The notes under the pieces were generated by a model. The model saw only the letters and a program-made list of their open reading frames with translations. It was not told where the DNA came from and searched no databases. Shown here piece after piece: positions 495 through 6,045 of a stretch of DNA of 64,000 nt. The stretch lies in contig RECJ01000102.1 of NCBI GenBank assembly GCA_007694115.1, positions 1 through 64,000 of the forward strand. Direction: 5' to 3'. The position numbers and the translations under genes were made by a program. Position 1 is the stretch's first letter. The number at the start of each line of letters is the position of its first letter. This DNA is from Leptolyngbya sp. DLM2.Bin27 (GTDB lineage: Bacteria > Cyanobacteriota > Cyanobacteriia > Phormidesmidales > Phormidesmidaceae).

Positions 495-731
495 ATGGGA
501 AAAGCAGGATTTGTGCTCAGGCAGGTGCTTGAAGAATATGAGGTGAGCCAATACAGCCTTGCCATGGCTCTCGATATTGAGCGCAACAGCGTCTACCGAT
601 GGGCAAATGAGAAGCGCGACCCGTCGGCTGAGACAGTGTTGGAAATTGTTAGAGCCTTAAAAACCCTAAACCCGCTAGCGGCCAAGGCTTTCGTAGAGCG
701 CTATCTGGGCGAAGAAGTCAAAGACTTGTAG
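495..731 (+). CDS. small XRE-family HTH regulator (78 aa)
   Basis: HTH pattern VLEEYEVSQYSLAMALDIERNSVYRWANEKRDPSAETVLEIVRALK. Confidence 0.8.
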   Translation: MGKAGFVLRQVLEEYEVSQYSLAMALDIERNSVYRWANEKRDPSAETVLEIVRALKTLNPLAAKAFVERYLGEEVKDL

Positions 732-820: not shown

Positions 821-1027
821 ATGCTTAGAGATTCGTCGATTGTCAGTATGTCGTCTGAGGTGATGGGCGGTGCGTTGGTGTTTGCGGGTACCCGTGTCCC
901 TGTGGAGACGCTGTTGGACTACCTCAAGGCAGGAGAGTCGATTGACGATTTTTTAGCAGGTTTTCCAACTGTTAGCAGGGAGCAGGTGGTTGGTTTGCTG
1001 ATTGAGCAATATCGAAATAACTGCTGA
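821..1027 (+). CDS. DUF433-family antitoxin-like protein (68 aa), no toxin partner adjacent
   Basis: DUF433 hallmark GG.LVFAGTRVPVETLLDYLKAGESIDDFLAGFPTVSREQV. Confidence 0.8.
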   Translation: MLRDSSIVSMSSEVMGGALVFAGTRVPVETLLDYLKAGESIDDFLAGFPTVSREQVVGLLIEQYRNNC

Positions 1028-1030
1028 ACC

Positions 1031-1351
1031 TCAATATTGATAGATAAGCAGGCGATCACAGGAGATCGCTTGCAAGAAGTAGGGGTTTTTGGCGGCAGCA
1101 AGGTCAACTAAATCGACTGTGCGACCTAGAAGGGCAGATAACCCGTGCTTTAACCCAAAGAAGCGATCGGCGGCACCCTCTGGCGTATCGGTAGCGAACT
1201 CGACTAAGAAATCAAAATCGCTGGTCTGGGCATCGAAGGTGGGCCGGGTAGCAGAGCCGAAGAGGTCGAGCCGAGCGACCTGGTTGAGGCGGCACAGCTC
1301 CGTAATTTGCGCCTGATTGTGTTTAACTAACTCAGTGGCTGTTGTATCCAC
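1031..1351 (-). CDS. MNT-type minimal nucleotidyltransferase (MntA-like antitoxin), no HEPN partner adjacent
   Basis: LFGSATRPTFDAQTSDFDFLVEF nucleotidyltransferase GS...DxD motif. Confidence 0.8.
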   Translation of the reverse strand: MDTTATELVKHNQAQITELCRLNQVARLDLFGSATRPTFDAQTSDFDFLVEFATDTPEGAADRFFGLKHGLSALLGRTVDLVDLAAAKNPYFLQAISCDRLLIYQY

Positions 1352-1509
1352 GGCTGGATTTTTTTAATTGGAACAGAAACTATAGAAATTAAGCCATTCT
1401 AATTACAACGCCTATGTTAGCTTGGGGCGCGTGAGAGTTTTAGAGTTTTCGGTAGCTTGCGTAAAAGAATTAGATATAGGGAGTAAGAGTTGAATATTGG
1501 GTAATACTA

Positions 1510-2412
1510 TTAAACGTCGCAGAACTGATTTAAATAAGTAATTAAGCAGCTAGGCGTTTCCGCATATTGAGAAAGCTCTGAAATAGTATTGCCATCTGAT
1601 AAGCTTAGTAAAACATTGATTTTTTCGGAAAAGTAAATTGGATTTCCTTTTCTTGCCTCTTCCCTGAATTTTCGCAAGATCTTTAAAAAGAACTCTATCT
1701 CAAATTTACCTCTAAAACTTTTTTGAGGATCTTTCTCTCGAAGCTCTTTCTCTTTATCTAAAATCTCATCAGAGGTAAGAACAACTGCGGTTTTAACTTT
1801 TGCATGCAAGTCTTCAAGACTGTAGCTCTTAGTAATACCGTCGAGGCTAATCTTAACGAACTTACAAATACTCCATTTGCTCATTTTCAATTCGACATTT
1901 CTGTCTTTTTGACAGGCTGCCCAAGCATTTAACTGGCTAACAGCATCATGGAACTCTGTTTGAAGCTTCTCGAATAGTTGAATACTCTTCAAAAAATCTT
2001 CACCTCCATCTACTAATTTGAATTCATCCCTCAAGATTTCTGAAAAGCATTGGCAAGATGTATAAAGATTTTCGATGGCGTAGCATGGCGTTTCGTAGAT
2101 TGAATCTAAGTCTTTTTTATATATAGACTCGTCAAAATCTCTATCAATAAAATAGGCTGTTTTTGACGTTTTGTAGTATTCTTCTGAAGAAATAATTTGG
2201 TAAATCTTAAGCACTCCATTTTTGCCTCCACAAGGGAGAAAGAAATACTTTCTAGGCTTCGCTATATTTTTTATTCTGATTCCATAATACTTACTATCTT
2301 CCCCTTCAAAAAAGCAATAAAGGGCAAACGGGAAAGATTTGTAATATCTAGTGAACTCTGTGTAAGCTACAACATGACTTCTTCGAGCTTTTCTTAAATT
2401 TTCTACTGACAT
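1510..2412 (-). CDS. DUF4435 / TOPRIM-like protein, AriB-like component of a putative PARIS system (300 aa)
   Basis: CFFEGEDSKYYGIRI (acidic TOPRIM-like start) and AYFIDRDFD (DxD) motifs; ATG directly abuts stop of upstream AAA ATPase (TAGATG). Confidence 0.75.
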   Translation of the reverse strand: MSVENLRKARRSHVVAYTEFTRYYKSFPFALYCFFEGEDSKYYGIRIKNIAKPRKYFFLPCGGKNGVLKIYQIISSEEYYKTSKTAYFIDRDFDESIYKKDLDSIYETPCYAIENLYTSCQCFSEILRDEFKLVDGGEDFLKSIQLFEKLQTEFHDAVSQLNAWAACQKDRNVELKMSKWSICKFVKISLDGITKSYSLEDLHAKVKTAVVLTSDEILDKEKELREKDPQKSFRGKFEIEFFLKILRKFREEARKGNPIYFSEKINVLLSLSDGNTISELSQYAETPSCLITYLNQFCDV

Positions 2413-3792
2413 CTAATTTTCCTGAACATAAATATCTAAATCTCTCGCATTCAAATCTAGTTCGTTGTCAAATATGAATGGTGAGTGCGTTACAGCCAGC
2501 ATAAAGCTGCATTTATGAGAATTTAGGATATCTGGCAGCAAAAGCTTCTGCCACTCTAAAGACAAAGATAATTCCGGCTCGTCAAATAAAAGAATAAATT
2601 CCTTTGGAGATTCCAAGTATATTTTAGAGAAAAGAGATATTATTTGCTTTTCCCCTGACGAAAGATTCTTGATTTCGACCACGCTATTATCTCTAGTTTG
2701 AACAATAGATATTTTGACGCTAGCCTCATCATATATAATCTGCTTCTTGTTTAAATACTTATTGCAAACTTTTGCAAATTGATTGATAGACTCATCTCTC
2801 TCTTTCTGTTTTTCATAAAGATCAACCAATTTAGATAAAAAATACACCAACTGCTCATATTTACTGGCATTTATATCGCCTGACGCAACCAACTCTTCTA
2901 TCTTTTCTCTGTCTAATCTTGAAATATTTTTCTCTCCGACTCTACTCAAAACGATGCTCAATGTTTCAGGTTGAATTTTATCTCTCATTGCTTGGGTGAC
3001 TACAGTATCATCCAAGAACTGTGAAAGTATTTCTCCTGACATTTCTGAAAAAAGATTAAAGGTTGAATCAATTATTGAGCTTTGAATTTCATTAAATCTG
3101 GCAATAACATCATCCATTCCAAACTGGATGAGCTTTCCTTTATTTTCATCAAAATTAATCTGTTCAAATTTTTCCTCTTCGTATCCAAGATTCTTTAAGT
3201 CTTCCTCAATTCTTCTGTAGGTTGGGAAATATAAAATATCTTCGTTAAAATTTTCTTGGATTAAGTTTTTGATTTTTTTTAATTTCTCTTCTAGCTCATC
3301 TAGTTCTACTTGACTGCTGTTTTGAAGGCTGAAATCACTTAGAAGCGTTAGCTGTTGGTAGGCTAATGGTGTAGGATAGCGTTTAGCTATTTGCAATAAC
3401 CTTTGTCTAAAAGCACTAGAATATTGGCCCTTTCTTGCTTCCCTTCGCAGCATTTCATAGTCTCGCACAGGAATAAATTTCCTAAGTGAATATATGATTT
3501 CATGCACGTTAAATTGCATTGAAAAGCTCACTTCACTTTTTTTAAGTTCAAATTTATCTCCCGATTCAAATTCTATGGACATTGAATCAAACTCAATGTC
3601 TGAAAGCTTCTCGAATTTACAGGCCAGCAGATAATATAAGGAGTTTAGAATCGTTGTTTTGCCAGAGCCGTTTTCAGCGATTAGTATCAGTGCCTCTTTC
3701 CCAAAAGGTATGTGGACGTCTTTGTATCCAAAAAGATTTTTAATAGAAAAGGACTTTATCTGAGATTTTTTTGGCTTGATATTTGGAGTCAC
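2413..3792 (-). CDS. AAA (ABC-like) ATPase, AriA-like component of a putative PARIS system (459 aa)
   Basis: Walker A AENGSGKTTILNSL, signature LSSGEKQIISL, Walker B FILLFDEPELSLS, switch AVTHSPFIFD. Confidence 0.8.
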   Translation of the reverse strand: MTPNIKPKKSQIKSFSIKNLFGYKDVHIPFGKEALILIAENGSGKTTILNSLYYLLACKFEKLSDIEFDSMSIEFESGDKFELKKSEVSFSMQFNVHEIIYSLRKFIPVRDYEMLRREARKGQYSSAFRQRLLQIAKRYPTPLAYQQLTLLSDFSLQNSSQVELDELEEKLKKIKNLIQENFNEDILYFPTYRRIEEDLKNLGYEEEKFEQINFDENKGKLIQFGMDDVIARFNEIQSSIIDSTFNLFSEMSGEILSQFLDDTVVTQAMRDKIQPETLSIVLSRVGEKNISRLDREKIEELVASGDINASKYEQLVYFLSKLVDLYEKQKERDESINQFAKVCNKYLNKKQIIYDEASVKISIVQTRDNSVVEIKNLSSGEKQIISLFSKIYLESPKEFILLFDEPELSLSLEWQKLLLPDILNSHKCSFMLAVTHSPFIFDNELDLNARDLDIYVQEN

Positions 3793-3888
3793 TTTATTGC
3801 CTTCCTAGAAAACAGTCCTTCTACAGAGCGAACTCACTCAACAGGATAAGCCCAAGAACTTTTTGAGTCTGCACCAATTTCGAAAATC

Positions 3889-3963
3889 TCAAAAAACAAG
3901 CACTTTGTCCAAAAGATCAGTAGGAGCCTGCTCCAGATCCTGCCAAATCAAACCTTTGGTCAT
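3889..3963 (-). pseudogene. truncated short antitoxin-like ORF (MTKGLIWQDLEQAPTDLLDKVLVF*), possibly DUF2281/VapB-like remnant
   Basis: Manual translation of minus strand; preceded by AGGAGGTGACCACG ribosome-binding-like sequence; stops after 24 aa. Confidence 0.4.
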
Positions 3964-4346: not shown

Positions 4347-4889
4347 CTAATTAACCCAAGAAATATCATCCGGGTCAGCCCCAGTAGAAGGTTCAGCTGG
4401 CGGGCCGGGTTGCGCCTGATCAGCCTGCGATTTTAAACGAGCCTGACCAGCGCGATCGCCCTCCTTCGCCTGCTTCCGCTTCATAAAAGCCGACGATGCC
4501 GACTCCTCCGGTGCCAGCGCTTGCAAAAACCAATCTAGCGTCTCCTGAGACAGCCAGCCGTGCAACACCGCCAGCGCCCCAATTCTCAGCCCCGCCTGCG
4601 CCTGCTCCTTGAGCAGAGCATCTATCTGCTGAGCATCCAGCAGCCCCGCCTGCTGAAAATAGTAGCCAATGGGGTTATCCCGACTGTCTGTGGCCAGCTT
4701 CGGCCACTGTTCAGCAAAAAACTCAATGGCGTCGCGCTTAACCCAGCCGCGCAGCTCAAGAATATCGCCGATTCGCAGATCAGGTTGCCATTTTTGATCT
4801 TGCAGCACCACCTCAAGCTGCGCCGTCGAGAGCAACCCCGCTCGCTGCAACACTTCGCCGAGGGGTCTGGTTTTAGGCAGGGCAGACAT
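4347..4889 (-). CDS. hypothetical protein with two GspE/MshEN N-terminal-like repeats
   Basis: Repeats PLGEVLQRAGLLSTAQLEVVLQDQ and PIGYYFQQAGLLDAQQIDALLKEQ; start set at MSALPKT (track ORF begins 4922). Confidence 0.6.
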   Translation of the reverse strand: MSALPKTRPLGEVLQRAGLLSTAQLEVVLQDQKWQPDLRIGDILELRGWVKRDAIEFFAEQWPKLATDSRDNPIGYYFQQAGLLDAQQIDALLKEQAQAGLRIGALAVLHGWLSQETLDWFLQALAPEESASSAFMKRKQAKEGDRAGQARLKSQADQAQPGPPAEPSTGADPDDISWVN

Positions 4890-5154
4890 AGCTAAACGGT
4901 TGCCACAAACAACACTGTACACACAAAATAAACTCCCATACCAACAACCCCTAGAACTATTGATTTTTCGTGATCTTTTTAAAGGTAGGGATTTTAAACT
5001 TGTGTACTAACCGGGGTCAAAGTGGGGACGAATCTCCATAGTACAAGGCAAAATGGGGAGCTGCTGTAAAGCTGCTCCCCTACTAACACACAGATTGCGC
5101 CGTCAGAATCTAGAGCAAACCCAGGTCTGAGCTATCGTCTGGTTGTATCAGAGA

Positions 5155-5712
5155 TCAAGATTCTGCCCAAAGTAACCGTAGCCTGCGGTCAAAGGTGCCT
5201 CGTTCAATGCGCCGCTGCATTTGGCAGGCCAAAACCTGATTGCGCTGAATGCGGTAAGCGCTCATGGTTGCCTCAATGACTTCCCAGAGGTCAGCAAGTT
5301 CTGTAATCAGGTCATGATCGGTTGCTTCTGCGGCTTCTCGGGCTTCTTCAATTAATTTTTGCCGCAATGCGTGACAATATTCACTGTGGCTCATGGTCTC
5401 AATATCAAACTGGATCTGTTGGCTGGCTAGAAGCTCAGGAATGCGATCGCGCACCAGCTTGTTATATTCCTTGCGCACCATAAACGTAGATTCCTCGTCG
5501 GGGGGATAGTAGAGCAGTGTGTAATCGCGATCAGCGGCAGCGCGGCGCAGCACCCTTAGGCATTCTTCCGCATCAGAGCGGCGACGAAAGCGCTTGACCA
5601 CCACCCGCTGCATGTCGGGCAGAAAGCGCACAATCGCCCAAACATGGAATGGGCTGATATTCATGCTGTAATAACTTGAACCAGGACAAAGGAGGGTGAG
5701 ACACTGATTCAC
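5155..5712 (-). CDS. MazG-like / phosphoribosyl-ATP pyrophosphohydrolase-like protein with N-terminal extension
   Basis: YNKLVRDRIPELL...KLIEEAREAAEA...LITELADLWEVIEA matches the all-alpha NTP pyrophosphatase pattern. Confidence 0.75.
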   Translation of the reverse strand: MNQCLTLLCPGSSYYSMNISPFHVWAIVRFLPDMQRVVVKRFRRRSDAEECLRVLRRAAADRDYTLLYYPPDEESTFMVRKEYNKLVRDRIPELLASQQIQFDIETMSHSEYCHALRQKLIEEAREAAEATDHDLITELADLWEVIEATMSAYRIQRNQVLACQMQRRIERGTFDRRLRLLWAES

Positions 5713-5814: not shown

Positions 5815-6045
5815 ATGCCCCGACTTCAGTCCGATCAGCCTAACCAGTCAACCCTCAAAGACTTGAGAAAGCGAGCGGGGCTTTCCCAAGAGGCGCTAGC
5901 CCGAATTCTGGATGTCAGCGGTAAGACAGTGAGCAATTGGGAGCGAGGCATGAGCGTGGCCAGCCTCACCGTGCCTCAAATGAAGGCGCTATGCGACGCC
6001 CTCGGTGTAACACTGAATGAACTACCCAATGACTTCAGCTCTTAG
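5815..6045 (+). CDS. XRE-family HTH regulator (76 aa)
   Basis: LRKRAGLSQEALARILDVSGKTVSNWERG. Confidence 0.85.
   Translation: MPRLQSDQPNQSTLKDLRKRAGLSQEALARILDVSGKTVSNWERGMSVASLTVPQMKALCDALGVTLNELPNDFSS

Follow-up and report, generated by a model that had tools for sequence, protein, structure and literature searches.

A probable PARIS-family defence cassette of the core-DUF4435 branch in a gene-turnover locus of a Leptolyngbya genome

The mechanism of PARIS anti-phage defence is understood mainly from one E. coli system. In E. coli PARIS, a hexamer of the ATPase AriA binds up to three copies of the nuclease AriB, which are released on trigger. The freed AriB forms dimers that cut tRNA-Lys(UUU), tRNA-Thr(UGU) and tRNA-Asn(GUU) between positions 40 and 41, at the site U36AAUC/A41 (the stroke marks the cut). 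Two lysines of E. coli AriB, K60 and K64, grip the anticodon loop of the tRNA and are needed for defence. Mutation of E26 in the same protein abolishes tRNA cleavage (PMC12409363). A PARIS from Salmonella, by comparison, is not activated by Ocr or by T7 (PMC11341690). The discoverers of PARIS called the system wherever an AAA_15 or AAA_21 ATPase gene lies adjacent to a DUF4435 gene, at scores of at least 32, 27 and 27 bits, respectively (PMC9122126).

We compared these systems to a gene pair found in a 64,000-nucleotide stretch of the draft genome of Leptolyngbya sp. DLM2.Bin27 (contig RECJ01000102.1), referred to here as the window. The left edge of the window is the end of its contig (C94), where the leftward sequence stops, and the draft genome is 86% complete. 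The features of the locus are as follows.

1510..2412, minus strand: ariB-like gene, DUF4435, predicted Toprim nuclease, 300 aa, ATG start
2413..3792, minus strand: ariA-like gene, AAA_15/AAA_21 ABC ATPase, 459 aa, GTG start
3800..3806, minus strand: Shine-Dalgarno-like AGGAAGG, 7 nt upstream of the ariA GTG (direct reading)
1427..3812, no strand: inserted stretch of inferred extent, about 2.39 kb (composite of blastn boundaries)
3813..3963, minus strand: decayed small ORF, antitoxin-like, start and ribosome-binding site kept (frames and stops read)

The two genes lie head to tail on the minus strand, the ATPase gene first and the DUF4435 gene second, and the TAG stop of the former abuts the ATG of the latter with zero spacer. 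The ribosome-binding site ahead of the GTG at 3792 is good (AGGAAGG, 3806-3800). The ATPase carries the motifs AENGSGKTT, LSSGEKQ and LLFDEPE, and the DUF4435 protein carries FFEGEDS and YFIDRDFD. An earlier sequence-only reading had given the same coordinates, sizes, spacing and motifs, all of which are present in the sequence, but had left the minus strand unstated. With 58.8, 52.4 and 161.7 bits for AAA_15, AAA_21 and DUF4435 and no spacer between the genes, the pair falls within the published calling rule for PARIS. The arrangement resembles that of E. coli B185 PARIS (PDB 8ux9, 8v45-8v49) in its order, an ABC ATPase and then an adjoining Toprim protein, and in protein size (464/308 aa in E. 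coli B185 versus 459/300 aa here). Walker, signature, Toprim and EN motifs and the fold of both proteins are shared as well, whereas sequence identity is only 20% for AriA and 16% for AriB.

The ATPase is homologous to AriA and has its Walker A, Walker B and signature motifs. In Pfam it matched AAA_15 at 58.8 bits (9.7e-16, cut-off 32.1) and AAA_21 at 52.4 bits (cut-off 27), and its best PADLOC match was AriA (2.7e-30). AriA of E. coli PARIS was also the first match in a sequence search of the PDB (8ux9/8v45, 1.4e-11) and in a profile search of the PDB (2.4e-19), while hhalign aligned the ATPase to E. coli-type AriA with a probability of 99.7 (E 4.8e-27). A predicted model of the ATPase (pLDDT 76.9) gave AriA as its best Foldseek match in the PDB (6.6e-16), with AriA structures of PARIS filling ranks 1-15 and the PtuA proteins of retrons and Septu next. 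In the alignment to E. coli AriA, K45 falls on the Walker A lysine K39 and E405 on the Walker B glutamate E393.

These searches bear on whether the pair could be a different ATPase-Toprim system that merely resembles PARIS, such as OLD or a Gabija-like system, AbiL, MADS or the PtuA type of Septu and retrons. Lower-ranking PADLOC matches of the ATPase are mad3 (1.4e-17) and many PtuA models (about 1e-16), and retron and Septu PtuA structures are found both by the PDB profile search and by Foldseek. PtuA belongs to the same ABC-ATPase superfamily and provides the next-best sequence and fold matches after AriA; whether or not a retron is present, however, its partner is the HNH nuclease PtuB rather than a Toprim/DUF4435 protein, and no HNH or reverse transcriptase gene lies next to the pair as a Septu or retron I-A system would have. 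OLD and GajA of Gabija have the logic of an ATPase combined with a Toprim unit in common with the pair, but carry both in one polypeptide, to which Gabija adds the helicase GajB. Here the Toprim unit and the ATPase are two proteins, not fused to each other, and no helicase is found among the neighbours. The profile match of the ATPase to OLD is weak (6p74, 1.4e-4), and no AbiL model was present among its best 25 PADLOC matches. For the ATPase, AriA ranks first in each search; for its partner, AriB alone gives a significant match by fold. The genes that define the rival systems (a UvrD-like helicase, HNH PtuB, a reverse transcriptase, the other MADS genes) are absent from the neighbourhood. We therefore rejected assignment to OLD or Gabija, Septu or retrons, and MADS, and consider it very improbable overall that the pair is a PARIS look-alike of this kind. 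The profile and PADLOC searches that the sequence-only reading had named as checks thus came out for AriA and AriB, with OLD and Gabija no closer.

The assignment of the second protein follows a different path. It matched Pfam DUF4435 at 161.7 bits (3.3e-47, cut-off 27) and its best PADLOC match was AriB (2.6e-42). These two calls are not independent, since the PADLOC AriB model closely resembles Pfam DUF4435, being of about the same length and covering the same stretch of the protein. Neither phmmer nor a profile search of the PDB matched the protein to the solved E. coli AriB, and hhalign between the two gave nothing significant (prob 0.3, E 0.21). The AlphaFold2 model of the protein (mean pLDDT 88.8), on the other hand, had two PDB matches below an E-value of 0.001, and both were AriB (8ux9_A, 8.3e-06; 8v46_D, 2.1e-05), superimposing with a TM of about 0.5 and an rmsd of 7.7 Å in Foldseek. 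The catalytic residues have counterparts: E26 of E. coli AriB corresponds to E36, and its DRE to D90-R-D92, while ENY corresponds to E114-N115-LY and R236 to R234. All 37 aligned sequences share E36, D90 and E114-N115, and at position 92 each has either D or E. The predicted homology to AriB thus draws on fold, motifs, family profile and gene partnership, not on direct sequence similarity, and the name AriB is to be used here with caution for this reason. The Toprim-like reading of this protein from sequence, together with the structural check proposed for E36 and the DRD motif, agrees with the match of the model to the AriB fold and with the conservation of these residues.

Pfam places the window protein at the core of DUF4435, whereas AriB of E. 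coli B185 is unmatched by the current family model (L140:4348-5274, PDB 8ux9_A). The AriB of this E. coli locus, which lies in a P4-like satellite, is the same as the PDB AriB at 293 of 294 aligned positions. Database records still label proteins of the E. coli AriB type as DUF4435.

Next, we explored how far the pair is conserved as a unit. A scan of genome contigs returned 19 relatives, of which 16 have cyanobacterial titles. Within the phylum, 42 of 386 sampled genomes have a DUF4435 match above the cut-off. Wherever a relative that we checked, mostly a cyanobacterium, had both genes complete, the two were adjacent. Both genes were read at 33 loci, which come from cyanobacteria, Bacteroidota, a planctomycete, Leptotrichia, proteobacteria and plasmids; at each of them the ATPase gene stands first and the DUF4435 gene follows after no more than 14 bp or with a small overlap. 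The nearest dozen pairs of this core-DUF4435 type are 57-63% (AriA) and 51-55% (AriB) identical to the window pair. Those of cyanobacteria, including Microcoleus vaginatus HSN003 (L003), Calothrix sp. NIES-4105 (L019), Anabaena azotica (L007) and others, consist of the same two genes with zero to four bases between them, and stand at different genomic places where checked. Our search of the literature found no experimental study of this branch. A variant arrangement is seen on a Paraburkholderia sabiae plasmid (L106, 3960-6419), in which one ATPase gene is followed by two successive DUF4435 genes.

Mobile DNA carries the pair as well. Four viral contigs in IMG/VR have it, and in one (L103) our own reading of the ORFs places it between the gpD- and ogr-type genes of a P2-like prophage, a type of site known to house defence systems (PMC9122126). 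No match to the pair was found in the INPHARED phages and no E. coli-type AriA in the viral contigs. The plasmid searches returned no copy above 60% protein identity and, at the DNA level, one short piece at 68%.

In trees of both proteins, an E. coli-type clade comprising E. coli, a Pseudoalteromonas plasmid (L104) and a Planktothrix plasmid (L105) stands apart from all other pairs. The branches that separate it measure 6.2+2.4 changes per column for the ATPase and 3.3+2.1 for the DUF4435 protein, with support of 100/100. The Planktothrix agardhii plasmid (NZ_LR882935.1) carries a PARIS pair of the E. coli B185 type; both PARIS branches therefore occur in cyanobacteria. The window pair itself terminates a long branch (0.64-0.68).

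Taken with the published rule, the PADLOC, PDB sequence and fold matches make a PARIS-like AriA/AriB cassette the best-supported reading, as had been proposed from the sequence. The family stands, but the pair forms part of a deep branch, well removed from the E. coli system that has been studied. We consider it highly probable that the pair belongs to the PARIS family and has an anti-phage function. AriA and AriB lead both in PADLOC and by fold, ahead of retron and Septu PtuA, the ATPase and nuclease residues align with those of E. coli, the genes are adjacent in every locus read and are carried by viral contigs, and the pair occurs sporadically within its own genus, as set out below. Against this stand the missing direct sequence match of the DUF4435 protein to a studied AriB and the tRNA-clamping lysines K60 and K64, which have no secure counterparts here. 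The pair adds a member to known PARIS and is not a new kind of system.

Within the genus, 2 of 28 genomes have the pair, the window's own included. The other carrier (G014) has it at a different place and at 63/52% identity. DNA of the same genus matches the window by blastn up to 1418/1426 (L047, L051) and, on the right, from 3813 onwards (L088), and because these matches lie on both sides of 1427-3812, the intervening 2.39 kb or so has the look of an insertion, its extent being a composite with left and right edges from different genomes. In another genome of the genus (G009), the same interval, which lies between an xre gene and the gene for a c-di-GMP-binding protein ahead of glmS, is occupied by a HEPN-nucleotidyltransferase pair instead. 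The decayed small ORF adjoins the ariA-like gene upstream on the same strand; it has no Pfam family and is intact as a 66-aa ORF elsewhere in the genus (L088:72-272, G026). Small toxin-antitoxin genes turn over at this site, and horizontal gain of the pair is likely.

The surroundings contain further small modules. To the left of the pair are a nucleotidyltransferase gene of the MntA/NTP_transf_2 type (1031-1351, minus strand; PADLOC PDC-S09, 4.3e-29), here without an adjoining HEPN partner, and the genes for a DUF433 protein (821-1027, plus strand) and a small Xre protein (495-731, plus strand); these are pieces of toxin-antitoxin modules. A related nucleotidyltransferase in L088 is followed by an apparent HEPN/DUF86 partner. 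To the right, the gene at 4347-4922 (minus strand) encodes a protein with two MshE-type c-di-GMP-binding motifs (NF053729) and makes up the right flank of the turnover locus; its counterpart adjoins glmS in G009. Beyond it, a MazG/PRA-PH-like gene (5155-5712, minus strand) and a divergent HTH gene (5815-6045, plus strand) form a unit that is found elsewhere in the genus (L048, L050, L055) and is missing before glmS in G009 (L042). This looks like a second mobile pair in the locus.

The base composition of the pair had been taken as a sign of recent acquisition. Its AT-richness is real: the GC content of the pair is 34.1%, compared with a median of 61.0% over all 2,283-bp stretches of the window, and the lowest-GC stretch of this length overlaps it. 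The flanks do have a higher GC content than the pair, although those immediately next to it, at about 50-57%, are below the rest of the window. However, the cassette has 29-36% GC in the ten relatives measured, regardless of host, and we rejected recent acquisition on GC alone since low GC is a trait of the family. No GCGATCGC site occurs inside the pair, as had been observed, but with 2.5 expected and a probability of finding none by chance of about 0.08 this is weak evidence, and we likewise set it aside as a sign of acquisition. Such sites are present in the right flank, the first at 4452, and not in the left. Of the proposed recent acquisition, horizontal gain holds as likely; its recency is not supported, the nearest relatives being about 55-64% identical and no close donor having been found.

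An acquired pair might also be degraded or silent, with no present function. Its locus is unstable and includes a decayed small ORF next to the pair, and fewer promoters are predicted near the ariA-like gene than expected by chance. Nevertheless, both reading frames are full length with intact motifs, and the ribosome-binding site and tight coupling of the genes are present, making a silent remnant very improbable.

We propose that the pair is a two-gene abortive-infection cassette belonging to the core-DUF4435 branch of the PARIS family, and that it reached this turnover locus by horizontal transfer. By homology with E. coli, the AriA-like ATPase would assemble into a ring that keeps the Toprim nuclease inactive. 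A candidate phage protein would bind the ring and alter its shape, and the freed AriB would dimerise and may then cut one host tRNA, or a few, within the anticodon stem. Such cutting would halt translation and hence phage production. By this analogy, we lean slightly towards tRNA cleavage as the effector act of the pair, while an Ocr-like trigger appears unlikely. The sequence-only reading had presented the sensing of phage anti-restriction proteins as a property of PARIS; this is not to be assumed for every member, or here, because the Salmonella PARIS failed to respond to Ocr (PMC11341690). Neither trigger nor tRNA target is transferable from E. coli to the window pair.

A type I restriction M-subunit gene is present in G000:C126:1493-3064 (L145; N6_Mtase, 9.5e-59), followed by a tRNA-Gly gene. 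This 5.6-kb contig showed no type I S or R subunit, and the draft genome yielded no full HsdR.

A related possibility, which overlaps with the PARIS reading, is that the pair is a PARIS relative with a shifted target (DNA or another RNA) or with a sensor that does not guard restriction. The great branch length separating it from the E. coli clade points this way, as does the Salmonella precedent (PMC11341690). The clamp lysines are also not securely kept: K64 of the window protein falls near K60/K64 of AriB, in a region that is ambiguously aligned. Moreover, the host tRNA-Lys(UUU) has UAACCG in place of the E. coli cleavage motif UAAUCA. Conversely, the window protein retains the two-metal Toprim residues and the RG motif near R236, and the host tRNA-Thr(UGU) carries an exact UAAUCA, so similar RNA targeting may still apply. 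This is the sole such gene among the predicted tRNA genes read from the draft genome, where some tRNA genes are missing, and we regard the match as a hint and not as evidence on the target. A shift of target or trigger is a reasonable minority view. We tentatively suggest, at a similar level of doubt, that the core-DUF4435 pairs common in cyanobacteria may be a functionally separate PARIS lineage, with a ring ATPase responding to a phage signal other than Ocr-like DNA mimics and a Toprim nuclease having a different tRNA preference, for example tRNA-Thr(UGU).

The window pair lies in a branch at the core of Pfam DUF4435, yet long branches separate it from the system on which the mechanism was worked out. 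If this branch works as PARIS, it would become possible to ask which phage proteins trigger the defence in cyanobacteria, and whether the choice of tRNA follows the tRNA set of the host.
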